Source: Zeimonas sediminis (GTDB taxonomy: Bacteria > Pseudomonadota > Gammaproteobacteria > Burkholderiales > Burkholderiaceae_E). From it: a stretch of DNA of 64,000 nucleotides. The stretch covers positions 806,001 to 870,000 of the forward strand of contig NZ_JAMQYE010000001.1 in the NCBI RefSeq assembly GCF_023721795.1, written 5' to 3'. Below are positions 1,688 to 63,479 of this stretch, piece by piece. A model generated the notes under the pieces. It was given only the letters and a program-made list of their open reading frames with translations. It was not told the DNA's origin and did not search any database. How positions within the stretch are numbered: the stretch's first letter is position 1; every line of letters starts with the position of its first letter. Position numbers and translations under genes: made by a program.

Positions 1688-3325
1688 TCAGTCCAGCGAG
1701 GCGGCGAGCAACTGCCGGGTGTAGTCGGCCTGCGGGGCGCCGAACACCGCCTCGACCTCGCCGGCCTCGACCACTTCGCCGTCCTTCATCACGATCACCC
1801 GGTGGGCCATTGCCCGCACGACGGCCAGGTCGTGCGTGATGAACAGGTAGGCGAGCCCGTGGCGCTCCTGCAGGCCGGCCAGCAGCCTGAGCACCTGGCG
1901 CTGCACCGAGACGTCCAGCGCCGACGTCGGCTCGTCGAGCACGAGCAGGTCGGGCTGCAGCACGACGGCCCGCGCGATCGCGATCCGCTGGCGCTGGCCG
2001 CCGGAGAACTCGTGCGGATAGCGGTCCAGCACGCTTTCGTCCAGACCGACCTCGGCCAGCATCGCCACCACGCGTTCGCGCCGCGCGCGCGCGTCGAGCC
2101 CCGGCTGGTGCAGCGCCAGGCCCTCGCCGACGATCTGCCCGATCGTCATCCTCGGCGACAGCGAGTTGTAGGGATCCTGGAAGACGAGCTGCATGCGCCG
2201 GCGCAGCGGGCGGAAAGCGGCGCGCGGCAGCGAATCGATGCGCTGGCCGTCCAGCCGGATGGCGCCCTCGGTCTCGCCGGCCGCGAGCTTCAGCAGCGAC
2301 AGGCCCAGCGTGGTCTTGCCCGAGCCCGACTCGCCGACGATCGCCAGCGTCTCGCCGCGGGCCACGCGAAGATCGACCCCGCGCACCGCCTCGAAGACGT
2401 GGCGACCGAACCAGCCGCGGCGCGACACGAAGCGGCAGCGCAGGCCCTCGGCCTCGACCAGCGTCGGCGCGCCAGCCGGCGGCGGGCCGACCTCGCGCGT
2501 CGGGCGGCTGTCGATCAACAGCCGCGTGTAGGCCTCGCGCGGCGCGCCGAACAAGGCCGCCGTGTCGCCCTCTTCCACGACGCGGCCGTCCTTCATCACC
2601 GCGACCCGGTCGGCGAAGGCGCGCACCAGCGGCAGGTCGTGCGTGATCAGCAGGACCGACATGCCCAGCTCGCGCTGCAGCTCCTCGAGCAGCGAAACGA
2701 TCTGGCGCTGGATCGTCACGTCGAGCGCGGTCGTCGGCTCGTCGGCCAGCAACAGCTTCGGGCCGCAGGCCAGCGCCATCGCGATCATCGCGCGCTGCCG
2801 CTGGCCGCCCGACAGCTGGTGCGGCAGGCTCGAGAAGCGGTGCTGCGGCTCGGGAATCCGCGTGAGCTCGAGCAGCTCGACTGCGCGGCGGGCCGCCTGC
2901 GCCCGGCTCAGGCCCTCGTGCAGCTCGAGCACCTCGCAGATCTGGTCGCCGACCGTGTACAGCGGGTTGAACGCCGTCATCGGCTCCTGGAAGACCATCG
3001 CGATGTCGCGGCCGCGGACGCCGCGCATCTCGCGCTCGGGCAGAGCCAGCAGGTCGCGGCCCTCGAACAGGATGCTGCCGCCGTAGCGGGCGTCCGCGTT
3101 CAGGCGCAGCACCGACAGCGCGGTCACCGTCTTGCCCGAACCCGACTCGCCGACCAGCGCGAACTTCTCCCCGCGCCCGATCGACAGCGACACCCGATCG
3201 ACCACCCGCGCGCTGCCGCTGGCGGTGCGGAAGTCGACCGACAGGCTCGCGATCTCCAGCAGCGGGGCCGGGTCGCCGGCGCGCCCGGGGCTTGCTCGGT
3301 CAGGTCGCATCGGTCGCTCAGCCAC
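1688..3325 (-). CDS. yejF: Oligopeptide/microcin C ABC importer, double ATPase YejF
   Basis: This is a 545-residue fused ATPase with two complete ABC cassettes, the YejF layout. Cassette 1 has Walker A GESGSGKT, signature LSGGQRQR and Walker B LLLADEPT. Cassette 2 repeats these (GESGSGKTTLG, FSGGQRQRIAIA, LLVLDEPTSALD). It powers uptake of oligopeptides (in E. coli, also microcin C) through YejB/YejE, with YejA as the periplasmic binding protein. It is the last gene of the yejABEF operon and overlaps the end of yejE. The start used is GTG at 3325; an in-frame ATG at 3310 is also possible, and neither has a strong ribosome binding site. Confidence 0.93.
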   Translation of the reverse strand: MAERPMRPDRASPGRAGDPAPLLEIASLSVDFRTASGSARVVDRVSLSIGRGEKFALVGESGSGKTVTALSVLRLNADARYGGSILFEGRDLLALPEREMRGVRGRDIAMVFQEPMTAFNPLYTVGDQICEVLELHEGLSRAQAARRAVELLELTRIPEPQHRFSSLPHQLSGGQRQRAMIAMALACGPKLLLADEPTTALDVTIQRQIVSLLEELQRELGMSVLLITHDLPLVRAFADRVAVMKDGRVVEEGDTAALFGAPREAYTRLLIDSRPTREVGPPPAGAPTLVEAEGLRCRFVSRRGWFGRHVFEAVRGVDLRVARGETLAIVGESGSGKTTLGLSLLKLAAGETEGAIRLDGQRIDSLPRAAFRPLRRRMQLVFQDPYNSLSPRMTIGQIVGEGLALHQPGLDARARRERVVAMLAEVGLDESVLDRYPHEFSGGQRQRIAIARAVVLQPDLLVLDEPTSALDVSVQRQVLRLLAGLQERHGLAYLFITHDLAVVRAMAHRVIVMKDGEVVEAGEVEAVFGAPQADYTRQLLAASLD

Positions 3326-4343
3326 GGCGGGTATCCAGTGCGTCGCGCAAGGCCTCGCCGACGAAGATCAGCAGCAGCAGCATGCCGACCAGCACGCCGA
3401 AGGTTCCCAGCGAGATCCACCAGGCGTCGAGGTTCGCCTTGCCCTGCGCGAGCAGCTCGCCCAGGCTGGGCGTGGACGGCGGCACGCCCAGGCCGAGGAA
3501 GTCGAGACTGGTCAGCGCGACGATCGCGGCGCTCATCCGGAACGGCAGGAAGGCGATGACCGGAGTCAGCGAATTCGGCAGCACGTGCCGGAAGATGATC
3601 TTCGAGTCGGGAAGGCCGAGCGCCCGCGCGGCGGTCACGTACTCGAGCTGCCGGTTGCGCAGGAACTCGGCGCGCACGTAGTCCGACAGGCCCATCCAGC
3701 CGAACAGCGACAGGATCCCGAGCAGGATCCACACGCTCGGCTCGAACATCGCGGCCAGGATCAGCAGCAGGTAGAGCTCGGGAATCGAGCTCCACACCTC
3801 GATGAAGCGCTGGAAGGCCAGGTCGAGCCTGCCGCCGAAATAGCCCTGCACCGCGCCCGCCAGCACGCCCAGCAGGACCCCGATCGCGGTCAGCGCCAAG
3901 CCGAACAGCACCGACAGGCGGAAGCCGTAGAGCAGGCGCGCGAGCACGTCGCGGCCGCGATCGTCGGTGCCGAGCCAGTTCTCGGCCGACGGCGGCGCCG
4001 GGTTCGGGCTCGCCGCGAAGTAGTTGATCGTGTCGTGGCTGTAGCGGTTCGGGGGCCAGATCGCCCAGTTGCCGTCCCTGGACAGCTGCTCTCGGATGAA
4101 GGGGTCGTGATAGTCGGTCCCGGTGCGGAAGTCGCCGCCGAAGGTGGTCTCCGGATAGTGGTTCCACAGCGGCCAGTAGAGTTGCCCCTGGTAGCTCGCG
4201 ACGATCGGCCGGTCGTTGGACAGGACCTCGGCGAACAGGCTCGCGCCGAACACGATCGCGAAGATCCACAGGCTGACCCAGCCGCGCCGGTTGGCCCGAA
4301 AGCGCAGCCAGGCGCGGCGGCCGGGCGACAGCGACGCCCTCAA
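3318..4343 (-). CDS. yejE: Oligopeptide ABC importer permease YejE
   Basis: An inner-membrane permease of 341 residues with one N-terminal membrane segment (VSLWIFAIVFGASLFAEVL), a long periplasmic loop, then the DppC/YejE permease core, including the LGTDDRGRDVLARLLYGFRLS region typical of this group and an EAA-type loop (AARALGLPDSKIIFRHVLPN). I chose TTG at 4343 as start because its last two bases overlap the yejB stop codon (TTGA) and GAGG lies 7 nt upstream. The frame stays open further upstream, but that part reads as a shadow of yejB. Overlaps with both neighbours imply translational coupling in the yejABEF operon. Confidence 0.9.
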   Translation of the reverse strand: MRASLSPGRRAWLRFRANRRGWVSLWIFAIVFGASLFAEVLSNDRPIVASYQGQLYWPLWNHYPETTFGGDFRTGTDYHDPFIREQLSRDGNWAIWPPNRYSHDTINYFAASPNPAPPSAENWLGTDDRGRDVLARLLYGFRLSVLFGLALTAIGVLLGVLAGAVQGYFGGRLDLAFQRFIEVWSSIPELYLLLILAAMFEPSVWILLGILSLFGWMGLSDYVRAEFLRNRQLEYVTAARALGLPDSKIIFRHVLPNSLTPVIAFLPFRMSAAIVALTSLDFLGLGVPPSTPSLGELLAQGKANLDAWWISLGTFGVLVGMLLLLIFVGEALRDALDTRRG

Positions 4344-5386
4344 CGGTTCGCCTCGAACTTCACGCGCGGATCGACCCAGGTGTAGGCGACGTCGGTCACC
4401 AGCTTGGTGAGCAGGCCGATCAGCGAGAACACGTAGAGCGAGCCGAGCACGACCGGGTAGTCGCGCTTGATCACCGCCTCGTACGAGAGCAGGCCCAGGC
4501 CGTCGAGCGAGAACAGGGTCTCGATCAGCAGCGAGCCGGTGAAGAAGGCGCCGACGAAGGCCGCCGGCAGCGCGGTGACCAGCGGGATCAGCGCGTTGCG
4601 GAACACGTGCTTGTAGAACACCTTGCGCTCGGACAGGCCCTTGGCCCGAGCGGTCAGCACGTACTGCTTGCGGATCTCCTCGAGGAAGGTGTTCTTGGTC
4701 AGCATCGTGGTGACCGCGAAGCTGCCGACCACCAGGCAGGTCAGCGGCAGCGCCAGGTGCCAGAAGTAGTCGAGCACCTTGCCTGCCAGCGACAGCTGGT
4801 CGAAGTCGTCGGAGGTGAGCCCGCGCAGCGGGAACAACTGCAGGAAGCTGCCGCCGCCGAACAGCACGAGCAGGGCCACGCCGAGCACGAAGCCCGGGAT
4901 CGCGTAGCCCACGAGGATCGCGACCGATGTCCACAGGTCGAAGCGGCTGCCGTTGCGCACCGCCTTGGCGATGCCCAGCGGGATCGACACCGCGTAGACG
5001 ATCAGGAAGCTCCAGATCCCGAGGCTCATCGAGACCGGCAGCTTCTCGACGATCAGCTGCCAGACCCCCTTGTGGTGCGAGTAGCTGGTGCCCAGGTCGA
5101 GCACCGCGTAGCGCTTGAGCATCTCCCAGAAGCGCTCGTGCGCCGGCTTGTCGAAGCCGTAGAGCTGGCGAATCTCCTCGATCCGCTCGGCCTCGATGCC
5201 CTGCGCGCCCCGGTACACGTTGCCGGTGGTCGCGACCTCGCCGGCCAGGCCGCCGCCGCGCAGCTGCTGGACCAGCTGCTCGACCGGGCCGCCCGGCACG
5301 AACTGGATGATCACGAAGGAGACCAGCAGGATCCCGATCAGCGTCGGGACCATCAGCAGCAGGCGCCTGAGGATGTAGCCGGTCAT
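4340..5386 (-). CDS. yejB: Oligopeptide ABC importer permease YejB
   Basis: A 348-residue permease of the DppB/YejB family. The N-terminus MTGYILRRLLLMVPTLIGI is the classic first membrane helix of this family. The translocation core (TTMLTKNTFLEEIRKQYVLT and ARAKGLSERKVFYKHVFRNA) carries the EAA motif that contacts the ATPase. It forms the membrane pore with YejE. The ATG at 5386 overlaps the stop of yejA (ATGA) and is preceded by an AAGGGGAAG ribosome binding site. The large periplasmic loop after helix 1, with QLRGGGLAGEVATTGNVYRG, is characteristic of YejB rather than of short DppB proteins. Confidence 0.92.
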   Translation of the reverse strand: MTGYILRRLLLMVPTLIGILLVSFVIIQFVPGGPVEQLVQQLRGGGLAGEVATTGNVYRGAQGIEAERIEEIRQLYGFDKPAHERFWEMLKRYAVLDLGTSYSHHKGVWQLIVEKLPVSMSLGIWSFLIVYAVSIPLGIAKAVRNGSRFDLWTSVAILVGYAIPGFVLGVALLVLFGGGSFLQLFPLRGLTSDDFDQLSLAGKVLDYFWHLALPLTCLVVGSFAVTTMLTKNTFLEEIRKQYVLTARAKGLSERKVFYKHVFRNALIPLVTALPAAFVGAFFTGSLLIETLFSLDGLGLLSYEAVIKRDYPVVLGSLYVFSLIGLLTKLVTDVAYTWVDPRVKFEANR

Positions 5387-54060: not shown

Positions 54061-54297
54061 ATGACGCCCCCACGCCCCCGCAGAAGCGCCGTCGAACAAA
54101 GCGTTCTCGAAGATTCGTTCCGCGAACCGTTCGAGCGAACGATCGCCTTCAACCAGTCGATCGGCATGCGCATCGAGTCGCTCGATGCCGAGAGCCCGAA
54201 GATCCGCTTCGACGTGCGCCCCGAACTCGTCGGACACCATTTGACCGGCAGGTTGCACGGTGGCGTCATCTCCGCCGCGCTGGACGTCACCGCGGGG
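54061..54297 (+). pseudogene. Truncated PaaI/hotdog thioesterase remnant
   Basis: The first about 79 codons match the N-terminal half of a hotdog thioesterase, ending in PELVGHHLTGRLHGGVISAALDVTAG, where LHGGVISAALDVT is the active-site helix region. After this the similarity stops: the continuing frame runs antisense through the downstream kinase gene and ends at 54522. The family length is about 150 residues, so half is missing. The break lies 18 bp from the kinase stop codon and marks a recombination edge. No second half is found downstream of the inserted block. Confidence 0.8.
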
Positions 54298-54314: not shown

Positions 54315-56135
54315 TCAGGCCGCCACGCAGCCCTCCAGAAGGGCCCGTAAACGATTCGGGTCGAAAGGCTTGGACATCGCAGTGACCTCCAGGGCCCTCA
54401 GGCGAGACCCATCGATCGCCTCCACCTGCCCCGAAAGAATGATCGCCGGCGTCGGTTGGCCCTGCTCCGCCCTGACGGCATCGATCAAGCCGACACCGTC
54501 GCTCCCCCCGGGCAATCCGTAGTCCGATACCACGACGTCGAACAGACGCTCCGCCCCGCGGACGACCTCGAGCGCCTCGCCCGCAGTGCCTGCGGCCTCC
54601 ACGAGAATTCCCCAGCTTTCCATCGTTTCGACGAGCGCGGCTCGCACCTGCGGATCGTCTTCTACTACCAGGGCGTAGGTGCCGGTGAGGGGGCCACTAG
54701 CCTCCAACGCCAACGTCGACGTGTCCCCGACGTTCCTTACGCAGATAGCCTCCATCGACCGTGGCATAAAAATATCAAAGCGCGCCCCGACGCCGAGATC
54801 TGACGAAAACACGAGTTCATGCCTTGGAAGTTTCTCGATTGTTCCTCGCACTATTGACAATCCGAGACCGTATCCACCTTCCAGTCCACGCCCCGTGGCG
54901 CCCAACTGAAAATATTCGTCAAATATTTTTTGATGAAATTTTCGATCGACTCCTAGCCCATTGTCTCGGACGGTCAGCCGCACCCTTTCACCGAGTCGGG
55001 CAGCATGCACGACAACCCAAGAGTTCCTCTCGTGGTTCATATACTTCAGAGAATTGCTGACCAAGTTAGAGAGCACATCCCACAAACGGCCTTCTTCACT
55101 ATCCACAATCAGTTTGCGGAGAGGAGGAATATCTACTCGCATTGTCACACCACGATCTTTCGCCGGCCCCCGAAACACGGCTTCGACCTTCAACAGCAAG
55201 GAACGAAGATCGACCGGCCCGACCGCAATCGGCGACGACTTCAAGCGCAGGGCCGACGCCTCTGATAGTCGGTCAATGCTATTTGCCATAACTTCGACGC
55301 AGGCCGCTACATTTCCGGCTAACTCATCGAGCCTCGACGCCCCCTCAGATTCTCCGGCCGAATGAATAGACTTGACATGAAGAGACATACTAGCGAGTGG
55401 TTGTCGTAAGTCGTGGCTTATTGCTGCGAGAACCTGCGTTTTAAACTTGTTCGCCTCAGCGTTCTCCGCTGCCGTAACAGCAAGCCTCCGAGCCATGTCC
55501 AGAAGCTTTTTGCCACTAGAAAAGAGCGCCCTCTCGCGCCGCTCGCCACCGACGGCCATGGCCCAACCAGCAAGATTTGCCACTGTCAGATACAGCAATA
55601 ATGCAAATATGTATTCGTCTTGGTGATATAAAGCGCCACAGACCACAAGAACTGATGAAACCACACAGGATGCTGCCGAGACATAGGGTGGCAACCTTGT
55701 AAATCCATACATTAGCCAACATGCAACTGTCATTGCCGTGGCCAACCTCGTAGTAGTTTGATGCTCCACATCGGGTGGAAAAATACTCATGAGACCGATC
55801 GAAAAGCAGACAATCGACGATGGAACGCCAATGATGAATACGTATCTCCTCAACGCAAATCTCGGGCGCAAATAGAGAACGGCTGCGCAAGCCAGAAGGG
55901 CGCAAACAACCAAGAGACGCAACCCTTGCCGCCCTGTCGCCAGCTCACCGTTCGGCACGCGTATTGAAACCAAAAGCCAAAATGACAAAGCCAGCCCGCT
56001 TCCCATTAACGCTGCTACACGCGACATGCGTAAGCCCGTCACCAAGTAGTGACGGGCGAAAGCTGCTTCATCGCGGCTGGCCGAGAAGCGCGGTGGCGGG
56101 CTAAGAGCCTGTCTCAATGAGAGTCTCTTCAACAT
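54315..56135 (-). CDS. Hybrid sensor histidine kinase with receiver domain (compositional chimera)
   Basis: A 606-residue kinase. Residues 35-200 hold about six membrane helices without a periplasmic sensor domain. His241 (AAISHDLRQPLASM) is the HisKA phospho-acceptor; N-box SNLVSNSLKYMN and G-box DNGLGVD are present. The C-terminal receiver has Asp538 (VVSDYGLPGG) and Lys589 (MSKPFD). SHDLRQPL kinases often use the receiver for feedback or phosphotransfer. Base composition differs within the gene: the receiver part (before about 54725) is GC-rich like the chromosome, and the kinase and membrane part is AT-richer. ATG at 56135 is preferred; an in-frame start at 56231 lacks support. It is divergent from the acyltransferase gene. 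Confidence 0.88.
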   Translation of the reverse strand: MLKRLSLRQALSPPPRFSASRDEAAFARHYLVTGLRMSRVAALMGSGLALSFWLLVSIRVPNGELATGRQGLRLLVVCALLACAAVLYLRPRFALRRYVFIIGVPSSIVCFSIGLMSIFPPDVEHQTTTRLATAMTVACWLMYGFTRLPPYVSAASCVVSSVLVVCGALYHQDEYIFALLLYLTVANLAGWAMAVGGERRERALFSSGKKLLDMARRLAVTAAENAEANKFKTQVLAAISHDLRQPLASMSLHVKSIHSAGESEGASRLDELAGNVAACVEVMANSIDRLSEASALRLKSSPIAVGPVDLRSLLLKVEAVFRGPAKDRGVTMRVDIPPLRKLIVDSEEGRLWDVLSNLVSNSLKYMNHERNSWVVVHAARLGERVRLTVRDNGLGVDRKFHQKIFDEYFQLGATGRGLEGGYGLGLSIVRGTIEKLPRHELVFSSDLGVGARFDIFMPRSMEAICVRNVGDTSTLALEASGPLTGTYALVVEDDPQVRAALVETMESWGILVEAAGTAGEALEVVRGAERLFDVVVSDYGLPGGSDGVGLIDAVRAEQGQPTPAIILSGQVEAIDGSRLRALEVTAMSKPFDPNRLRALLEGCVAA

Positions 56136-56291
56136 TCTTGTGCATGCGCAGATGTCGAGGCTCTCGATCGTGGCACAGGGTGCGACTACTCGCCACAGCC
56201 CCCTATAGCCAGCGCGGCCCCGCATCGCCACTCAGTTGCAGAGAGACTCTACAGAGCACTTTCACTGTCGAACGCAACCCTATGTTGTACG

Positions 56292-56305
56292 TAGGAAACT
56301 TCCTA
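56292..56305. promoter_or_regulatory. Palindrome TAGGAA-AC-TTCCTA
   Basis: A 14-bp inverted repeat with 6-bp arms and a 2-bp centre in the 277-bp divergent gap between the hybrid kinase and the acyltransferase gene. Its size suits a dimeric regulator. No regulator gene lies inside the block, so the binding protein is unknown. Confidence 0.4.
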
Positions 56306-56366
56306 ATCGCCAGCATTTGTGGCGACAAGCCCTTCCTGTTACGCTTAGCGGTCTAGATCAATAGGC

Positions 56367-56384
56367 CTAAGACTGTCGTCTTAG
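56367..56384. promoter_or_regulatory. 18-bp palindrome upstream of the acyltransferase gene
   Basis: CTAAGAC-TGTC-GTCTTAG, with perfect 7-bp arms, ends 29 bp before the ATG at 56413 and just ahead of its GGAGG. The size and place resemble lux-box-type operators, but it could also form a 5'-UTR hairpin. The rest of the 277-bp gap shows no gene. Confidence 0.5.
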
Positions 56385-56412
56385 CCAAGGCGCTCACGGA
56401 GGATCCTTTTTC

Positions 56413-57210
56413 ATGACGAGTTCGTTGACGCTGGAGGAAGTACAGCGAACCGCAGAATCCGTCTCCTCCCTCCAGTGGCCTGGGGGGCCTAGCTCGATCG
56501 GCAAGCCACTGCCTTTTCGCGTAAGGGTTGTCCGGACCAATGAACAGTTGGAAAAAGCCATCAGTCTCCGCGCTGAGGCCTATGGCCGGCATGTTCCCGA
56601 ACTTGCAACTGTCCTTGATAAGCCGGAAGAGATCGATCGCTCCGACAAAGCGATCATTTTTCTGGCGGAATCAAAAGAGGACGGTTCACCAGTCGGAACC
56701 CTGCGCATGCAGACAAATCTGCACGGCCCACTTTCCCTTGAACAATCGGTTGTTCTCCCACAACGTTTCCAGAATCGCCCCTTGGCCGGGGTCACCAGGC
56801 TCGCGGTAAAGGAAGGACGCGCTGGAAAGCAAGTCAAGCTCGTTCTATTCAAGACCCTTTTTCGCTATTGCTTCGCCACGCAGATCGAGTGGATCATCAT
56901 TGGGGCTCGACCACCTTTGGACTCGGAGTATCGAAAGATCGGCTTTGAAGACGTGTTCGATGACCAGCGTCTAGTGCCATTCGTCACCGCGGAACACATC
57001 CCTCACCGTGTCTTAGCTTTTGACGTCTTGGGTGCTGAACGCAAATGGTTCGCGACGAACCATAGGCTGTACAAGTTTATGGCTTACGACTACCATCCGG
57101 ACATTGAGGTTTTCGCATCGATCAGTGGAATGTGGTCTCGACCACGTCGAATGCGTAGAAGCGATTCAGAGTTGAGTGTTCCTGCGAACTTGGGTATCCC
57201 GCTCGTCTGA
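56413..57210 (+). CDS. FeeM/AHL-synthase-like acyltransferase
   Basis: A 265-residue protein that I place in the GNAT-like group containing N-acyl amino acid synthase FeeM and distant LuxI-type enzymes. Supporting strings are FRVRVVRTNEQLEKAISLRAEAYGR, AESKEDGSPVGTLRMQT, GVTRLAVKEGRAGKQVKLVL and IIIGARPPLDSEYRKIGFEDVF. FeeM joins an acyl chain from acyl-ACP to an amino acid, giving a membrane-active or signalling lipid. PEP-CTERM/exosortase-associated acyltransferase is the main alternative, but no exosortase genes are near. GGAGG lies 9-10 nt before the ATG. The gene lies wholly within the AT-rich island, between a kinase and a c-di-GMP protein. Confidence 0.6.
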   Translation: MTSSLTLEEVQRTAESVSSLQWPGGPSSIGKPLPFRVRVVRTNEQLEKAISLRAEAYGRHVPELATVLDKPEEIDRSDKAIIFLAESKEDGSPVGTLRMQTNLHGPLSLEQSVVLPQRFQNRPLAGVTRLAVKEGRAGKQVKLVLFKTLFRYCFATQIEWIIIGARPPLDSEYRKIGFEDVFDDQRLVPFVTAEHIPHRVLAFDVLGAERKWFATNHRLYKFMAYDYHPDIEVFASISGMWSRPRRMRRSDSELSVPANLGIPLV

Positions 57211-57243
57211 TTGCCTAGCCCTTCCGTCGGAAGCACGTGTGTG

Positions 57244-57275
57244 GAGGTTCGCCTTTAAGGCATCGTAGGAACCTC
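57244..57275. promoter_or_regulatory. Nested inverted repeats upstream of the GGDEF-EAL gene
   Basis: GAGGTTC (57244-57250) pairs with GAACCTC (57269-57275) across 18 bp, and GCCTT-T-AAGGC (57251-57261) sits inside. It lies in the 106 bp between the acyltransferase stop and the next ATG and could be an operator or an attenuating hairpin. It is not followed by a T-run. Confidence 0.35.
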
Positions 57276-57316
57276 GACGTGCCAGCCTTCTGGCCCGCTC
57301 GCAATTCATCTCGTGC

Positions 57317-60298
57317 ATGCACATGGCGGCATTTGGGCTGAGCAAAGAAAGCAACCGACTTCGAGATGCGGTCTCGCGATTTCTTCTTTACGGGATCGCA
57401 GTACTCATCCTTGCTTCTGTTGCGGCCGTAACCATTGGTTGGGGTCTTTCAAGCAGCGATTGGGAGTCGTACACGCAGGCGGAAGAGCTTGCGTTCACGT
57501 ACGAAGAAGATTCGACCGCGGACTTAAGCCCCGCTGAGGCTTTCGCGCGATTGCGAAAGTCCCCTGTCAGTACCCGCACGTTCGCCACCAACCGATCCGA
57601 GCACGCCTTCTGGCTCCTGTTGGAAGCCCCCGAGCGGTCGGCCCCTTACTCGATCGTCCTGCCATCACGCCATCTTCGAAGCGCCGAGTGTTGGTGGCGA
57701 TCTCGGGATGCCGTCGATGGTCAAACCTCTTCGATTCGGCCACTTGACTCAATACGTCCAAGCCGTGGCGGGTTTGTATTGGAGATCGTCGAGGCAGATC
57801 CTGGCTGGGTTCTTTGCAAGACAAGACACGTCGGGCCGGCTCGAGCGACAGTACTAGCCGCCGACCCCGTAGGAGTAAAGATCGCCGAGCAGCGTTTCGA
57901 ACGCTCAGGAGGCTTGCTCTTTGGCAGTCTCTTGATGCTCGCGGCATTTAGTGCGGTCGTTGCGGCGGTCTCTAAGGACTCAACATTCTTCTTCTTCTCA
58001 ATTTGGATAATTCTTAACCTTCGCATAGCTGCCGTAAGCGCCGGATGGGATTTCTCTTGGCTAGGCCTCAGCCCGGAACTAGAAATCACGTTTCGACAAA
58101 CATCTCTGGGCGGTTACTCTCTGATATCCGGCTTGCTCTTTGGCAGCTTGTTCAAGCAGGAAATTGTCAAGCTACATCTGACCCCCCTCTTTCGTGGCGG
58201 GGTTGCGTTCGCTGCCGCGATCCTTGTCGCCTCTTTCATTCTTCCCTATAAGACATTCCTGCCAATTATGTGGGGCTCGGCCGCTATAGCGGCCATTATC
58301 CTTGGAATCCTCCTCACGCGGATCTGCGCCAGCAGCCTTTCTTCCATCGCCATCTGGTATGGACTCGGGTGGGGCTTTTCTATTCTGGGAATTGCAGGTG
58401 AGATTATTCGCGCAGTCACGAATCAGACACTGGACATCCCGGGACTCAATCAGTCCACCGGAGCGGTAATTTCTGCATTGCTGACCGGCGTGGCACTCGC
58501 TCAGAAATTAAACGATGAACGCCAGCAACGGGTTTCTGCACAGAATAGTGCGGTCTACGCCCTCCAGCGCTTCCGCGAGAACTACAACGCGATGCCCGTC
58601 GGCCTGTTCTCGATGAAGGACGACGGGACCATCCTCGAGTACAACCCCGCGTTCGGTGTGATGTTCGGGCTGCCGCCGCCATCCCAGTACCGCGAGCCAC
58701 GGCGCTGGGCGGAGGTCGCCAACGAGTACGCGTTCGAGTCGCTGATTCGGCAGGCGGATGAGAGCAGGATCACCGACACCGAGATCGCGATCTCTTCGCG
58801 GGAGGGCGGTCGCCGCTGGCTGCACATGCGGGCGTTGCGCAAGCAGGGCCGCATCGAAACCTGGATCGAAGACGTGACCGCGCGAAAGGAGGCCGAGGGC
58901 CGCTTGCAGTTCCTCGCCGATCACGACTCGCTGACCGGACTCCTGAACCGGCGTGGCTTCAATGCGTACCTCGAGCGGGCGATCGCCGCATCGCGCGATC
59001 GAAGCATCTGCTTCGCCTACGTCGACCTGGACCGGTTCAAGCTCGTCAACGACCTGTTCGGACACGTGGCGGGCGACCAGATTCTTCGCCAGATGTCGAC
59101 GCGGACGCGCGCCGTGGTGCGTCCGCCCCATGTCGCCGCCCGCGTCGGTGGCGACGAGTTCGTGGTCATCATCAACGACATGGACCTGGACGCGGCGCGC
59201 ATGCTCTGCGAGGAGCTGCGGCGGGCCCTGAGCGAACAGCCCTACCAGCATCAGGACAAGGCGTTCAGCGTTGCCGCCAGCATCGGCGTGATCCGGCTCG
59301 ACCCGGCGATGTCGCCGCGGGATGCGCTTACGGCGTCGGACCGGGCCTGCTCCGAGGCGAAGAAGGCGGGCGGCTCGACGGTCGTCGCCTTCGACTCGCG
59401 CAGTTCCGAGCTGACCGCCTATCTCGACGAGATCAAGCTCGTGGCCAACATGCGCGAGCGGCTGCCGGTCGAGAACTTCTTCACCCAGTTGCAGCCGATC
59501 GTTTCGCTGCGAACGCCCTACTCCAGCCTTTCCTACGAGGTGCTCGTCCGGATGCGCGATGGTGCTGGCGCCGTAGTGCCCCCTGCCCGCTTCATCTCGG
59601 CCGCCGAGCGAAACGGCCTGATGAGCCAGATCGACCGCTGGGTGCTGCGCTCGACGCTCGAATGGCTCGACGAGCATCCCGATCACCGGGAGCGCCTCGG
59701 CTTCTGCACGATCAACCTCAGCGGGGCTTCCCTAAACGACGAGAAGTTCCTGCAGGACACGATCTCGCTGATCCGCGAACACCGCGACGCGACACAACGG
59801 GTGTGCTTCGAGATCACGGAAAGCGTGGCGCTCTACGACCTGAACACCACGCGGCGCTTCGTCGACCGGGTCAAGTCCTTCGGGGCGCGGGTCGCCCTCG
59901 ACGACTTCGGCGCCGGCTACACGTCCTTCAGCTACCTGAAGGAGCTGCCTGGCGACTTCGTGAAGATCGACGGGAGCTTCATTCGCGACGTGAACCTGAA
60001 TCCCGCGAATCACGCGATCACGCGCGCGATCGTCGACCTCTCCCACGAGATCGGCATGGCCTGCGTGGCCGAGTGGGCCGAGAACGCCGAGATCGTCCGC
60101 ACGCTGAGGGACCTCAACGTGGACTACGCCCAGGGATTCGGTCTTTGCCGGCCGGTCGACCGCGAGCGCCTGCTCCACGCCGATCACGGCGTGGCGCTGG
60201 TCCAGGACCCGCAGGTGATCGAGGTCCTCGGCCAACAGGCCCCGGCAGCGCACCGCCGCAGCAGCATCGCCGGCCGCCGCAGCATCCTGGCGGTCTGA
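57317..60298 (+). CDS. 7TM-PAS-GGDEF-EAL c-di-GMP signalling protein (compositional chimera)
   Basis: A 993-residue membrane protein. It has an N-terminal helix, a periplasmic 7TMR-DISM extracellular-like domain (residues about 50-190), seven membrane helices (about 195-395), a PAS domain (about 415-525), GGDEF (intact, 611-615) and EAL. The EAL signature is EVL at 741-743; the other metal and base residues are kept (TINLSG, FEITES, ALDDFGAG, VKIDGSF, YAQGF), so both synthesis and hydrolysis of c-di-GMP are possible. The 7TM half is AT-rich with foreign codon use, while the PAS-GGDEF-EAL half from about 58545 is GC-rich like the host. ATG at 57317 or 57323 may be the start. Confidence 0.88.
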   Translation: MHMAAFGLSKESNRLRDAVSRFLLYGIAVLILASVAAVTIGWGLSSSDWESYTQAEELAFTYEEDSTADLSPAEAFARLRKSPVSTRTFATNRSEHAFWLLLEAPERSAPYSIVLPSRHLRSAECWWRSRDAVDGQTSSIRPLDSIRPSRGGFVLEIVEADPGWVLCKTRHVGPARATVLAADPVGVKIAEQRFERSGGLLFGSLLMLAAFSAVVAAVSKDSTFFFFSIWIILNLRIAAVSAGWDFSWLGLSPELEITFRQTSLGGYSLISGLLFGSLFKQEIVKLHLTPLFRGGVAFAAAILVASFILPYKTFLPIMWGSAAIAAIILGILLTRICASSLSSIAIWYGLGWGFSILGIAGEIIRAVTNQTLDIPGLNQSTGAVISALLTGVALAQKLNDERQQRVSAQNSAVYALQRFRENYNAMPVGLFSMKDDGTILEYNPAFGVMFGLPPPSQYREPRRWAEVANEYAFESLIRQADESRITDTEIAISSREGGRRWLHMRALRKQGRIETWIEDVTARKEAEGRLQFLADHDSLTGLLNRRGFNAYLERAIAASRDRSICFAYVDLDRFKLVNDLFGHVAGDQILRQMSTRTRAVVRPPHVAARVGGDEFVVIINDMDLDAARMLCEELRRALSEQPYQHQDKAFSVAASIGVIRLDPAMSPRDALTASDRACSEAKKAGGSTVVAFDSRSSELTAYLDEIKLVANMRERLPVENFFTQLQPIVSLRTPYSSLSYEVLVRMRDGAGAVVPPARFISAAERNGLMSQIDRWVLRSTLEWLDEHPDHRERLGFCTINLSGASLNDEKFLQDTISLIREHRDATQRVCFEITESVALYDLNTTRRFVDRVKSFGARVALDDFGAGYTSFSYLKELPGDFVKIDGSFIRDVNLNPANHAITRAIVDLSHEIGMACVAEWAENAEIVRTLRDLNVDYAQGFGLCRPVDRERLLHADHGVALVQDPQVIEVLGQQAPAAHRRSSIAGRRSILAV

Positions 60299-60463: not shown

Positions 60464-61813
60464 ATGAACGTTTCCCCCGAAGGGACGCCGCACGCGCGTG
60501 CGGCGACCTCCAAGATTTCCAGCATCCTCGTCACCGGTGACGGCCTGCTCGCGGACTCGCTCGCGGACGCCTTCCTTCGCGGCGGTGCGACCGTGCAGCG
60601 TGCGGCGGCGCAGCCTGTCGGCGCCTGCGCGGCTGCGGTCGACCTCGTCGTCGAGGCATCCCGGTCAGCCGCCAGCGAGCGGGCGCGCGCCCTGCATCGG
60701 CTCGAGCACCAGGCCCCCGCATCGGTCCCGATCGTCGCGGTGTCGACCATCGACCCCATCGCTGCCTTGGCGGGCGGCCTTCATGAAAGAGGCCGCCTGA
60801 TCGGGCTCGCGCTCGCTGCCGCCCCAGGCCCCGCTCGCTTCGCCGAGATCGTGCGGGGCGAGTCGAGTCCGGATGCGATCGATTCGCTGCGCACTCTCCT
60901 TGCGCATAGCGGCATCGACAGCATCGAGGTATCGGACGCCACGGGCTTTCATGCCCCCGGCCTGGCCCGGGCCTTCGCGAACGAGGGGCTCGCACTGCTC
61001 GGGGAAGGCATCCCTGCCGCCACGATCGAGCGTGCGGCGCACGAGGCCGGGTTCGCCGCGGGCCCGTTGGCGCTGATGGACGCAATGTCGCTCGAGGAGG
61101 CCGACCGGCTGTTGCATGACGCCGCGGACGGGCACGGCCACGATCATGGGCACGACCACGGACACGGACACGGACACGGACACGATCACCGACACGGACA
61201 CGATCACGGGCACGGGCACGGGCACGGGCACGGGCACGATCATTCGCACGGTCACGGGCACGATCATTCGCACGCGCACGGCCACGGTCACTGCTGCGAG
61301 GAGCACGGTCATCACCACGCGCCAGGGCACGAACATCACGATGCCCACCACGAGGCTGCACCGCCGCACGGCATGACCGAAGAAGCTGTGTACGTGCTCG
61401 AGAAGATGGCTCATGGCTTCGGGCGATTGGGCCGCGAAGCCGGCCGCGGCTTCTACGACTACGAGGACGGCGAGGAGCCCGAGCTGTGGTCCGGCCTGAA
61501 GGTGTTCGAGCGCCGCCGCGCCGCGGTTCCCGCCGAAGACCTGCGCGACCGCCTGCTCTACGCGCAGGCGGTCGCGTCCCTGCGCTGTCTTGCCTCCGGG
61601 GTGATCGCTTCGGCTGACGATGCGAACCGCTCGTCGATTCTCGGCGTGGGCTTCCCGCAGGCGCTCGGCGGCACGCTGGCCTTCGTCGAGCGCATCGGGC
61701 AGGCCGCATTCGATGCGCGCGCGCGCGAGCTCGCCGGGCGCTATGGCGAGCGTTTCACGCCCCCGGAGCTGCCTACCGGTCTCGGCGGGCGGGCGCCGGC
61801 AACGGAGAAATGA
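60464..61813 (+). CDS. Degenerate 3-hydroxyacyl-CoA dehydrogenase-like protein with His-rich insert
   Basis: A 449-residue protein with the layout of FadB-type dehydrogenase: an N-terminal Rossmann domain and two C-terminal helical domains (PLALMDAMSLEEADR, then GREAGRGFYDYEDGEE and ASADDANRSSILGVGFPQALGG). Key residues are lost: the nucleotide loop reads GDGLLADS instead of GxGxxG, and the HFFNP-type catalytic stretch reads LALAAAPG. Residues 223-297 are a Gly/His/Asp insert with 36 His and a CC pair in the loop before GRGFYDY. It is probably not an active dehydrogenase and may bind Zn, Ni, Co or Cu. It is followed 5 bp later by the NUDIX-MBL gene. Confidence 0.7.
   Translation: MNVSPEGTPHARAATSKISSILVTGDGLLADSLADAFLRGGATVQRAAAQPVGACAAAVDLVVEASRSAASERARALHRLEHQAPASVPIVAVSTIDPIAALAGGLHERGRLIGLALAAAPGPARFAEIVRGESSPDAIDSLRTLLAHSGIDSIEVSDATGFHAPGLARAFANEGLALLGEGIPAATIERAAHEAGFAAGPLALMDAMSLEEADRLLHDAADGHGHDHGHDHGHGHGHGHDHRHGHDHGHGHGHGHGHDHSHGHGHDHSHAHGHGHCCEEHGHHHAPGHEHHDAHHEAAPPHGMTEEAVYVLEKMAHGFGRLGREAGRGFYDYEDGEEPELWSGLKVFERRRAAVPAEDLRDRLLYAQAVASLRCLASGVIASADDANRSSILGVGFPQALGGTLAFVERIGQAAFDARARELAGRYGERFTPPELPTGLGGRAPATEK
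61133..61351. repeat. Histidine-coding CACGGN-type tandem repeat
   Basis: Imperfect 6-bp repeats of the CACGGG/CACGGA/CACGAT type encode alternating His-Gly and His-Asp pairs over about 150 bp, then a less regular His-rich stretch. It is in frame within the dehydrogenase-like gene. Short exact runs make it prone to replication slippage, always in steps of two residues. Confidence 0.85.
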
Positions 61814-61817
61814 GCCG

Positions 61818-63479
61818 ATGACGCCGGAAAGCCGCATCCGCCCCGGGAAGTACCTTCACGATCTGCGCGAGCCGGTAGCCACGCGCCCGGCCGCCACGGT
61901 CCTGCTGCTGCGAGACAGCGCCGCCGGACCGGAAGTCCTGATGACCCGGCGCTCGATGTCGGCGAGCTTCGCGCCGGGCGCCTTCGTGTTTCCGGGTGGC
62001 GTCGTCGACCCGCTCGACGCCTCGCCCGCCGCCCGCCGCGTGAGCGCTTCGCGTCCCGACCAGTCGCCCGAGACCCTCGCCTTCGTGACCGCGGCGGTTC
62101 GCGAGGCCTTCGAGGAACTGGGCGTGCTGCTGGCGCGACCGGCGCGGTCGGGTGTCGACCCGGCCAAGGTCGCGACGACGATGCCCCGCCACGACGATGG
62201 CAGCTTCTTCGAACGCGTCGCGGCGGCCGGCCTCACGCTGGCGCTCGACGAGGTCCACTGGCTGAGCCGCTGGATCACCGATCGCGACCTGCCGAAGCGC
62301 TTCGACGCGCACTTCTTCGTGGCGAAGATGCCCGAGGGGCAGGAGCCGGTCGCCGACGAAGGCGAGCAGTTCGAGCCGACCTGGGTGCTGCCGGCGCAGG
62401 CGCTCGCGCGACACGATCGCGGCGAGTTCGACATGATCTTCCCGACGATCCGCACGCTGCGCGCGCTCACGCGCTTCGAGGACGTCGCCGCGATCCTGCG
62501 CCACTGCGAGGAGAACCCCGGCAGGTGGTTCTCCTGCCCTCGGGCGGGGCTTCTGCGCGGTGAGGTCGCCCGCTTCAGCGAGGAGGAACTGCCCTTCGGC
62601 GAGCTCGAGCTCGTGAGCCCGGACGGCAGGATCGTCCACGAGCTCGACTGGCAGCACGAGCGGGCGGTGCCGCTGCTGCGACACGTGCAGCGACTGACCG
62701 CGCCCAACCCGGGCCGCATGACCGGCCCGGGAACGAACACCTACATCGTCGGCGAGCCGGGCGAATACCTGGTGATCGATCCGGGGCCCGACGAGCCGGA
62801 CCACATCGCACGGATCGCGGCGATCGTCGGTGACGGGCTGAAGGCGATCGTCTGCACCCATGCGCACCCCGACCACGCGCCGGGCGCCGCGCCGCTGAAG
62901 GCGCTGACCGGCGCGCCAATCCTGGGTCGCCCGACCGGCCCGGACTTCGACCCGCAGTGGGCCTTCGTGCCCGAGCGCACGCTGGAGGACGGCGAGTGCC
63001 TGCGCGTGGGCGACTCCACGCTGCGGGTGCTGCACACGCCCGGCCACGTGTCGAACCACGTCTGCCTGCTGCTCGAGGAGGACGGCCTGCTGTTCTCGGG
63101 CGACCACATCCTGAACGGCTCGACGACGGTGATCACGCCGCCCGATGGCGACATGCGCGACTACGTGGCCCAGCTGCACAGGCTGGCGCACGAGCCCTTC
63201 GACTACATCCTGCCGGCCCACGGCCACGCGATCGCGGCGGGCAAGAGGGAGGTCGCCCGGCTGATCGCGCACCGCATGGCGCGCGAAGCCAAGGTGATCG
63301 ACGCGCTGGGCACTGCCGGCAAGCCGGCGACCGTGGACGAGCTGGTGCTGACCGCCTACGACGACGTGGACCCGGTGATCAGGCCGGTGGCCAAGCGCTC
63401 GCTGACCGCGCACCTGCTGAAGCTTCGCGACGACGGCCTGGCCACGCTCGACGGCGAGCACTGGCAGCTGATCGGCTGA
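61818..63479 (+). CDS. NUDIX hydrolase fused to metallo-beta-lactamase fold hydrolase
   Basis: A 553-residue fusion. Residues about 20-250 form a NUDT19-like NUDIX domain: FVFPGGVVDP and, after an insert of about 35 residues, REAFEELGVLL, so the Nudix box is interrupted as in NUDT19 coenzyme A hydrolases. Residues about 290-500 form an MBL domain with metal ligands in CTHAHPDHAPG, LHTPGHVSNH, SGDHIL and LPAHGH. A winged-helix tail (TAGKPATVDELVL and HLLKLRDDGLATL) is as in LACTB2-like proteins. It may hydrolyse acyl-CoA derivatives or act on nucleotides or RNA. It is probably co-transcribed with the upstream dehydrogenase-like gene. Confidence 0.85.
   Translation: MTPESRIRPGKYLHDLREPVATRPAATVLLLRDSAAGPEVLMTRRSMSASFAPGAFVFPGGVVDPLDASPAARRVSASRPDQSPETLAFVTAAVREAFEELGVLLARPARSGVDPAKVATTMPRHDDGSFFERVAAAGLTLALDEVHWLSRWITDRDLPKRFDAHFFVAKMPEGQEPVADEGEQFEPTWVLPAQALARHDRGEFDMIFPTIRTLRALTRFEDVAAILRHCEENPGRWFSCPRAGLLRGEVARFSEEELPFGELELVSPDGRIVHELDWQHERAVPLLRHVQRLTAPNPGRMTGPGTNTYIVGEPGEYLVIDPGPDEPDHIARIAAIVGDGLKAIVCTHAHPDHAPGAAPLKALTGAPILGRPTGPDFDPQWAFVPERTLEDGECLRVGDSTLRVLHTPGHVSNHVCLLLEEDGLLFSGDHILNGSTTVITPPDGDMRDYVAQLHRLAHEPFDYILPAHGHAIAAGKREVARLIAHRMAREAKVIDALGTAGKPATVDELVLTAYDDVDPVIRPVAKRSLTAHLLKLRDDGLATLDGEHWQLIG

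Follow-up and report, generated by a model that had tools for sequence, protein, structure and literature searches.

Why should a single acyltransferase gene stand between two membrane receptors that act through different outputs? The question arises from a 64,000-nucleotide stretch of the Zeimonas sediminis genome, hereafter the window, which carries a gene for a FeeM-type acyltransferase (the synthase) between a divergent gene for a hybrid sensor kinase and a gene for a seven-transmembrane (7TM) receptor with a cyclic di-guanosine monophosphate (c-di-GMP) output. A preliminary description had named this trio, and all three genes were found where it had placed them. It proposed that one or both receptors sense an acyl-lipid signal produced by the middle gene. 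Comparison among related loci now supports that proposal, and from sequence we consider it probable that this is a pherotype-type chemical signaling locus, with the logic of comQXPA built from unrelated parts.

The observation on which this reading turns is that the membrane half of the kinase, the synthase, and the 7TM sensor half of the receptor form a single hypervariable block of low G+C content, whereas the GGDEF-EAL output half, the kinase core, and the flanking genes track the genome.

Exchange of a block between conserved output halves

Pairs of loci with closely similar outputs display the pattern most directly. The window (G000 in our set) and its nearest relative, Zeimonas arvi CC-CFT501 (G057, also L090), share 86% identity in the neighboring Nudix protein and 91% in the receptor output half; identity is 27% in the 7TM sensor, 43% in the synthase, 33% in the kinase membrane half, and 43% in the kinase core. 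Loci G065 and G070b compare similarly (Nudix 87%, output half 92%, 7TM sensor 28%, synthase 42%, kinase membrane half 46%, core 73%). For G065 and G062, which carry the same allele, the corresponding values are 81%, 82%, 71%, 79%, 75%, and 73%.

Partial Mantel correlations conditioned on the output half were r = 0.79 between synthase and 7TM sensor (n = 24, p 0.0005), 0.67 between 7TM sensor and kinase membrane half (n = 24), 0.42 between synthase and kinase membrane half (n = 24, p 0.0005), and 0.22 between synthase and kinase core (n = 20, p 0.01). Because such permutation p-values leave shared ancestry in, the trees and breakpoints described below weigh more.

A fast pace of sensor-domain evolution in general was considered as an explanation. 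As a control, other kinase and 7TMR-DISM proteins of G065 were compared with those of G070, with reciprocal partners assigned by the C-terminal part only. Among 16 such G065 proteins, which are a part of all matches, 12 had a reciprocal partner in G070 and four did not. The 12 pairs are 83–97% identical C-terminally and 70.0–98.8% N-terminally, with the other 7TMR-DISM protein at 70.0%, compared with the 28% and 46% of the 7TM sensor and the kinase membrane half at the locus. Rapid change of sensor domains in general is thus insufficient, since all control pairs keep at least 70.0% in their N-terminal parts.

Trees were built part by part, and two groups of loci were followed through them. Group A consists of G062, G065, G064, G072, and, where present, G070a; group B consists of G070b, G067, G068, G071, G060, G066, G069, and L095. 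Both were defined from pairwise identities, with G070a and L095 added. In the synthase and 7TM-sensor trees each group is a clade with support of 100/100 (G072 is absent from the 7TM-sensor tree). The output-half tree requires four changes for group A and three for group B. By the approximately unbiased (AU) test, with groups that were picked after the identities of the same loci had been seen, group A as a single clade is rejected for the output half (p 9.9e-11) and for the kinase core (p 3.2e-55). The tree of the kinase membrane half holds group A as a clade (80/95) and needs two changes for group B. Several rows in the trees lie on long branches.

Enlarged trees of the synthase and the 7TM sensor have seven groups in common: A; B; G057 with G064b and L088; G005 with G007 and G006; G025 with G029 and L078; G047 with G055 and L081; and G032 with G046, G011, and the window. 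The window joins this last group at 99/95 in the synthase tree and at 100/98 in the 7TM-sensor tree. G032 (L075) is Quisquiliibacterium transsilvanicum DSM 29781. By its synthase and 7TM sensor the window allele groups with Quisquiliibacterium-type loci, and it sits on the Z. arvi-like output half noted above.

Two comparisons reveal where alleles are joined. The metagenome-assembled genome (MAG) ACE_NR_PROT22 (G070) holds two versions of the locus, on contigs C1 and C33. These run together for 8463 nt at 99.41% identity (50 mismatches), which makes contamination by another species unlikely, and part company within the kinase gene. The two kinases share their last 483 residues exactly; they begin to differ in the final predicted membrane segment, which precedes the HisKA domain. 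The contigs match again over 65 nt (95.4%) at the linker between the 7TM and PAS regions, where C33 ends. For the output half, G070 has a single close copy (69% identical to that of the window; the next is at 41%). Polymorphism within a species, which is characteristic of pherotype loci, is thus seen here in one MAG whose assembly likely mixes strains.

The second comparison is between G065 and L095, a contig from an assembly labeled as an actinomycete MAG. Two stretches match, one of 5122 nt (94.1%) and one of 4632 nt (92.5%), and blastn finds nothing across the 3.06 kb between them. On the left, the match takes in roughly the last 40 codons of the kinase membrane half; on the right, it begins about 11 codons before the PAS half. 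The middle of L095 is the other allele, with a synthase, kinase membrane half, and 7TM sensor that are 85%, 86%, and 81% identical to those of G070b. At 92–94% nucleotide identity, and 94% in their kinase cores, G065 and L095 are close relatives rather than established members of one species. L095 is among five contigs (with L078, L081, L088, and L093) that are filed under MAGs of Pirellula, Thiocapsa, Methanoregulaceae, Deltaproteobacteria, and, for L095, Actinomycetes; all five are probably misbinned.

Identities, trees, and breakpoints agree on the pattern by which a pherotype locus is recognized, in which a signal gene and a sensor domain switch jointly over conserved outputs.

The base composition of the window is uneven across the locus. 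Overall G+C content is 70.5%, and an AT-rich stretch runs from 54.3 to 58.55 kb, with coding parts at 54–58%. Values are about 57.7% for the kinase core, 54.3% for the kinase membrane half, 54.0% for the synthase, and 55.3% for the 7TM sensor; the PAS-GGDEF-EAL half is at 66.7%, and the right edge of the AT-rich stretch lies within the third gene, where sensor meets output. Of the 25 tabulated loci that include an output half, 23 have a kinase membrane half, synthase, and 7TM sensor that all lie below it in G+C content, the exceptions being G009 and, for the kinase only, G047. The kinase core is at 64–70% in 12 other tabulated loci of the genus (G057 excluded) and at 54.7% in G057. Given these low values in G057 and the window, the core itself seems to be part of the exchanged stretch in both. 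A foreign genomic island, which low G+C content might suggest, is not the whole story, as the same neighboring genes are found in relatives and the low G+C content tracks the swapped part.

At its left edge, next to the end of the kinase gene, the AT-rich stretch interrupts a thioesterase gene, of which only the start is left. The remnant aligns over 71 residues (54085–54297) with residues 135–205 of a 287-residue frame in G057, and nothing nearby in the window aligns with the frame past residue 205. The G057 frame is longer and has the remaining domain, and the window's own genome holds only this remnant and a weak match at 27%. Probably the incoming allele truncated the neighboring gene. The cut thioesterase, together with the Quisquiliibacterium-type synthase and sensor on a Z. 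arvi-like output half, is consistent with an imported allele whose left crossover was rough.

Gene order and distribution

The three-gene order is not unique to this genome. A synthase homolog is carried by 33 of the 74 family genomes, the window's own included. From 47 synthase matches, the window and 40 further regions were examined, one locus (G067:C61) was added later, and five weak matches were left out. A contig scan with a single-protein query gave nothing; the same scan with an alignment query gave 31 loci. The 41 loci comprise 29 that hold both the synthase and a GGDEF-EAL match and 12 others: nine low-identity paralogs, G028 and G023 at contig ends, and G004. Contig ends also cut some of the 29, removing the kinase in G006, G007, G067, and G071 and the receptor in G070a.

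Synthase and receptor genes are co-directional neighbors in 27 of the 29 (the exceptions are G001 and G001b), and a divergent kinase gene lies less than 800 bp away in 23. Elsewhere the kinase gene is co-directional (G011), 1091 bp off (G045), or about 3 kb off and beyond the receptor (G009), and it is missing next to the pair in G064b, G001, and G001b. The examined stretch includes a Nudix/metallo-beta-lactamase gene for 21 of the 29 loci; in G005 it lies on the side of the kinase. Because the order recurs in relatives, the locus is not a chance arrangement.

Spacing within the pair varies. The loci of G032, G046, and G011 (L026, L027, and L030) have 768–817 bp between synthase and receptor, compared with 106 bp in the window, and in each an antisense frame of 205–230 residues occupies this gap; tblastx shows the three frames to be similar, and they look hydrophobic on inspection. 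In G072 (L037) the receptor gene is split, as it is matched in two pieces, through either a sequencing error or a broken gene.

At the level of the order, 24 of 399 genomes match the synthase alignment: seven from the window's own family, 11 strong matches in four other families, and six weak matches, which were left out of the locus comparison. All 11 strong matches, in other Burkholderiales families, have a co-directional 7TMR-DISM-GGDEF-EAL gene adjoining the synthase. None of the 11 has the family-type kinase beside the pair, and three show a weak kinase-core match elsewhere in the examined stretch. Their synthases and 7TM sensors are only moderately more variable than the output halves; for example, L110 and L112 are 90% identical in the output half, 73% in the synthase, and 82% in the sensor. 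A scan of 72,556 plasmid records gave 13 matches (10 Paraburkholderia and three Caballeronia), and each of these holds the synthase/7TM-receptor pair. Three of the 13 are annotated, with the synthase as a hypothetical protein and the receptor as an EAL domain-containing protein (two records) or a hypothetical protein (one). When five proteins of these three records were searched against Pfam, both synthases matched FeeM and the three receptors matched GGDEF, EAL, and 7TMR-DISM, with the 7TM score of the L118 receptor below the cut-off. Spread outside Burkholderiales was considered and set aside, since a scan of the class matched two of 370 genomes, the window's own and one weak match.

Because the out-of-family and plasmid loci hold the pair without the kinase alongside, synthase and 7TM receptor make up the core unit, which the searches made here place in Burkholderiales; the kinase is an optional third component that this family has added. 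The preliminary description had given the synthase two flanking receptors. The 7TM receptor stands as the regular partner; the kinase does not share that standing.

The enzyme and its candidate receptors

The layout of the locus in the window is collected in Table 1.

Table 1. Features of the locus and its flanks in the window, with the evidence for each
Feature	Coordinates	Strand	Evidence or remark
Hotdog thioesterase gene, 5' remnant	54061-54297	+	NF008675 71.3 bits, residues 13-89 only
Hybrid histidine kinase, whole gene	54315-56231	-	HisKA 30.0 bits, HATPase_c 69.1, Response_reg 51.2 (Pfam)
Kinase output half (core)	54315-55493	-	HisKA ~55263-55442, HATPase ~54759-55094, receiver ~54336-54671 (Pfam)
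Kinase membrane half	55494-56231	-	Five hydrophobic segments by hydropathy; hypervariable
Intergenic region, kinase/synthase divergent	56232-56412		49.7% G+C
FeeM-type acyltransferase, 265 residues, proposed signal synthase	56413-57210	+	PF21926 42.7 bits; fold 2g0b
Synthase residue 126, Gly	56788-56790	+	Catalytic Glu position of classical synthases
106-bp gap, synthase/receptor co-directional	57211-57316		Gene spacing
7TMR-DISM-PAS-GGDEF-EAL receptor, whole gene	57317-60298	+	7TMR-DISM_7TM 37.6, GGDEF 121.9, EAL 217.3 bits (Pfam)
Receptor sensor half: transmembrane helix, periplasmic beta-sandwich, 7TM bundle	57317-58546	+	PF07695; model; 3jyb; hypervariable
Receptor output half: PAS-like, GGDEF ~58916-59374, EAL ~59453-60154	58547-60298	+	Pfam; 66.7% G+C
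Conserved flank: 3HCDH-domain gene and Nudix/metallo-beta-lactamase gene	60464-63479	+	Anchors the locus in relatives

The middle gene had been assigned to a FeeM-like enzyme, and it groups there rather than with an unrelated function. Its PF21926 score stands against a cut-off of 27 bits, and 31 of 32 members of the synthase family match FeeM in Pfam at an E of 1. The structural model (mean predicted local distance difference test score, pLDDT, 83) has FeeM itself, 2g0b, as its best match in the PDB (E 9.4e-10, TM-score by target 0.71), followed by GCN5-related N-acetyltransferases and, lower in the list, the N-acyl-homoserine lactone (AHL) synthases RpaI and BjaI (6wn0, 5w8a). A profile search of the PDB reaches 2g0b only at E 1.1 over 42 residues, and the gene has no match in NCBIfam. 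The LuxI-type family PF00765 is absent from the 15 families that the 32 members match at an E of 1.

Eight residues (R53, E72, D75, R98, N102, R129, K147, and C153) are invariant in all 47 aligned rows. The column of residue 126 aligns with the catalytic Glu, which is present in 29 of 30 classical rows (the other has Asp). In this subfamily Glu occupies the column in 13 of 47 rows, including all 11 out-of-family pairs and, within the family, only G004 and L088. The replacements vary with the allele group, and one residue can recur in more than one group: His in all five group A rows and in G005, G006, G007, and L093; Tyr in all eight group B rows and in G001, G023, G025, G029, and L078; Gly in the window, G032, G046, and G028; Ala in G011; Gln in G057, G064b, and G045; Phe in G047 and G055; Asn in L081; and Trp in G009. 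With this Glu replaced, the synthase lacks one of the features by which known N-acyl amino acid synthases are defined, and the change may reflect an altered substrate chemistry. PMC4897644 and PMC9654057 describe a catalytic Glu in characterized enzymes of that kind, and PMC4897644 reports that phenotypes were lost when Ala replaced the matching Glu of Nas354. There, too, the C-terminal domain of Nas343 and Nas354 is modeled on a c-di-GMP-binding protein, which is another link between FeeM-type enzymes and c-di-GMP.

Other genes of this type are found in the genus. Several members have a second FeeM-type gene, 30–37% identical, elsewhere in the genome (L055, L056, and L059–L065), with a gene for a LuxR-type (GerE) regulator some 3.5 kb from it in L055. 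G057 has three classical FeeM-type genes near each other on C1. An association with PEP-CTERM/exosortase systems was considered and rejected: the window's own genome has no exosortase match, none was found in 11 of 18 genomes of the genus (seven have one), and the locus is present in G062 and G068–G072, which are among those lacking it.

The receptor belongs to the 7TMR-DISM proteins both by its PF07695 match and by an extracytoplasmic beta-sandwich, which is seen in the model and in the match to 3jyb. The sensor-half model (mean pLDDT 87) consists of one transmembrane helix, the beta-sandwich, and seven transmembrane helices, and its best PDB matches are the periplasmic domain of RetS (3jyb, E 3.7e-6; 2xbz) and then human Wntless (E 2e-5, TM-score 0.28, root-mean-square deviation 15). 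Wntless carries a lipidated protein, and the modeled resemblance is taken as a lead toward a lipid ligand and no more; among the matches listed from open-licence PubMed Central (PMC) text, no paper mentioned the two together. In the receptor translation the GGDEF motif is intact and the EAL-type motifs EVL, DDFG, and DFVKIDGSF are present; the PAS domain scores below the Pfam cut-off. In the kinase, hydropathy indicates 5–7 hydrophobic segments in the membrane half across seven orthologs. Among the best 25 of 95 NCBIfam matches, all are below the cut-off, and the top one is to a NahK/ErcS-type C-terminal part. In the flank, the 3HCDH-domain protein (60464–61813) has a long His/Gly/Asp-rich stretch and is only 34–58% identical to its relatives.

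Readings of the locus and known systems

In the scheme that we propose, the FeeM-type enzyme would join an acyl chain to an amine, yielding a diffusible or membrane-soluble acyl signal. The 7TMR-DISM half would recognize this signal and set the GGDEF-EAL output, and hence c-di-GMP, as its evolutionary pairing with the enzyme suggests. The divergent hybrid kinase added in the family may, less securely, recognize the same signal through its membrane half and feed a phosphorelay. Exchange of the roughly 3-kb block of kinase membrane half, synthase, and 7TM sensor, between the conserved kinase core and the PAS-GGDEF-EAL half, would let a cell switch dialect with its outputs kept. The window would then hold an imported Quisquiliibacterium-type allele on a Z. 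arvi-like output half, with the thioesterase probably truncated by the import. In its fullest form, this is a Gram-negative small-molecule pherotype system in which the enzyme writes an allele-specific acyl signal, one 3-kb cassette jointly re-keys the c-di-GMP and phosphorelay receptors within species and across genera, and the group-specific active-site residue helps set the signal chemistry. We hold that whole picture only tentatively, at a little under even chances.

Several observations weigh against the proposed scheme. Each species is represented by a single genome, in most cases a MAG. When the Nudix protein is given, the synthase still correlates with the output half (partial r 0.55, n = 21), and among the 11 out-of-family loci no swap was found. 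The catalytic Glu is replaced in nearly all members of the window's family, and with so few rows retaining it the chemistry may differ or be lost. In G046 and G047 the synthases are 44% and the 7TM sensors 27% identical, with the kinase membrane halves at 55% and the cores at 66%. In L088 the kinase membrane half is of the B type (80%) but the synthase and 7TM sensor are of a different type; the synthase is inverted relative to other loci, and a transposase-like frame (3304–4400), which we take to be IS5-like, lies between synthase and kinase. Linkage and the homology needed for crossovers could also drag the kinase membrane half along with its neighbors. With the kinase link failing in G046/G047 and L088, we regard the 7TM receptor as the secure partner and the kinase as a probable second.

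These same breaks favor a reading in which only the 7TM receptor is cognate, the pair is the whole unit, and the kinase senses something else, its membrane half being swapped through adjacency and the needs of crossover. So do the pairs that lack a kinase in all 11 out-of-family loci and all 13 plasmid records, and the lower partial Mantel correlation of the synthase with the kinase membrane half than with the 7TM sensor. We nevertheless regard this as unlikely, given that the kinase membrane halves of groups A and B are only 38–47% identical even where the cores are 73% or, in L095 and G065, 94% identical, that they are alike within groups, and that group A is a clade in their tree. In one genus, then, the kinase membrane half changes along with the pair and the output halves do not, as a signal sensed by both receptors would predict. 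A decidedly unlikely account has the enzyme producing an envelope lipid or a biosurfactant, the receptors monitoring lipid or envelope within the same cell, and selection by phages or antagonists driving the diversity. PMC4897644 is in its favor, since known N-acyl amino acid synthases yield surfactant-like products and the C-terminal domains of Nas343 and Nas354 have the c-di-GMP link described above. However, enzyme and sensor halves change over together in matched groups, which surfactant production alone does not require, and the known PEP-CTERM link offers no explanation in genomes that lack exosortase. Moreover, a cytosolic-type enzyme diversifies alongside the membrane sensors, and variation of the surface alone would therefore be insufficient. 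We find it very improbable that the enzyme has lost catalysis in this family and acts instead as an acyl-binding regulator or receptor partner: the 34 of 47 rows without Glu and the Nas354 mutant (PMC4897644) would fit such a loss, but eight invariant residues suit an active enzyme better than a decayed one.

If the proposed scheme holds, the Burkholderiales would have a dialect system of their own, made of a FeeM-type acyltransferase and a 7TM c-di-GMP receptor, that comes with ready panels of alleles and natural chimeras. It would supply a ligand for an orphan 7TM bacterial receptor and a function for a synthase gene annotated as hypothetical in Paraburkholderia plasmids. It would also open a route to studying the evolution of specificity where a single signal has to match both receptors.

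The preliminary description knew of no system with these three parts, and the best matches in open-licence PMC text likewise contained no description of the pair or the trio. Individual parts do have known counterparts. With FeeM and the N-acyl amino acid synthases, the window synthase shares a Pfam family above the cut-off and the best PDB fold; it differs in being distant, in its replaced Glu, in having no NCBIfam match, in lying in a genome without exosortase, and in standing beside a 7TM c-di-GMP receptor. AHL synthases, both the LuxI type and the CoA-dependent RpaI and BjaI, appear with a related fold in its match list, and the invariant R53, E72..D75, R98, and R129 may echo the LuxI pattern. 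However, the family has no PF00765 match at an E of 1, and the window receptors are not LuxR proteins. In CqsA/CqsS and LqsA/LqsS, a small-molecule synthase similarly adjoins a multi-transmembrane hybrid kinase, although the enzymes are of another class and are not known to have a 7TMR-DISM GGDEF-EAL partner. Among 7TMR-DISM proteins such as RetS, SagS, and RgsP, RetS is matched by the periplasmic domain of the window receptor. 7TMR-DISM proteins have already been treated together with GGDEF in the literature, for instance RgsP (PMC6107284). The window receptor differs in being linked to, and switching with, an acyltransferase gene, for which no report was found in open-licence PMC text.

Matched dialects of synthase and receptor are, to our knowledge, known mainly from Gram-positive peptide systems, and most pherotype papers among the matches listed from open-licence PMC text concern such systems. 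Pneumococcal pherotypes are a further case of this logic. In the comQXPA system of Bacillus, with its receptor ComP, and in the agr system of Staphylococcus, the signal-making gene or genes and the receptor are polymorphic together, as in the window locus. For ComQXP, PMC4408185 describes this joint polymorphism of signal-making genes and receptor. Those systems use peptide signals and one kinase receptor, whereas the window locus has an acyltransferase, a Gram-negative host, and two sensor halves with different outputs. The logic of pherotypes is therefore already known, and what is new here is the allelic switching, as one block, of a synthase with both of its neighboring sensor halves.

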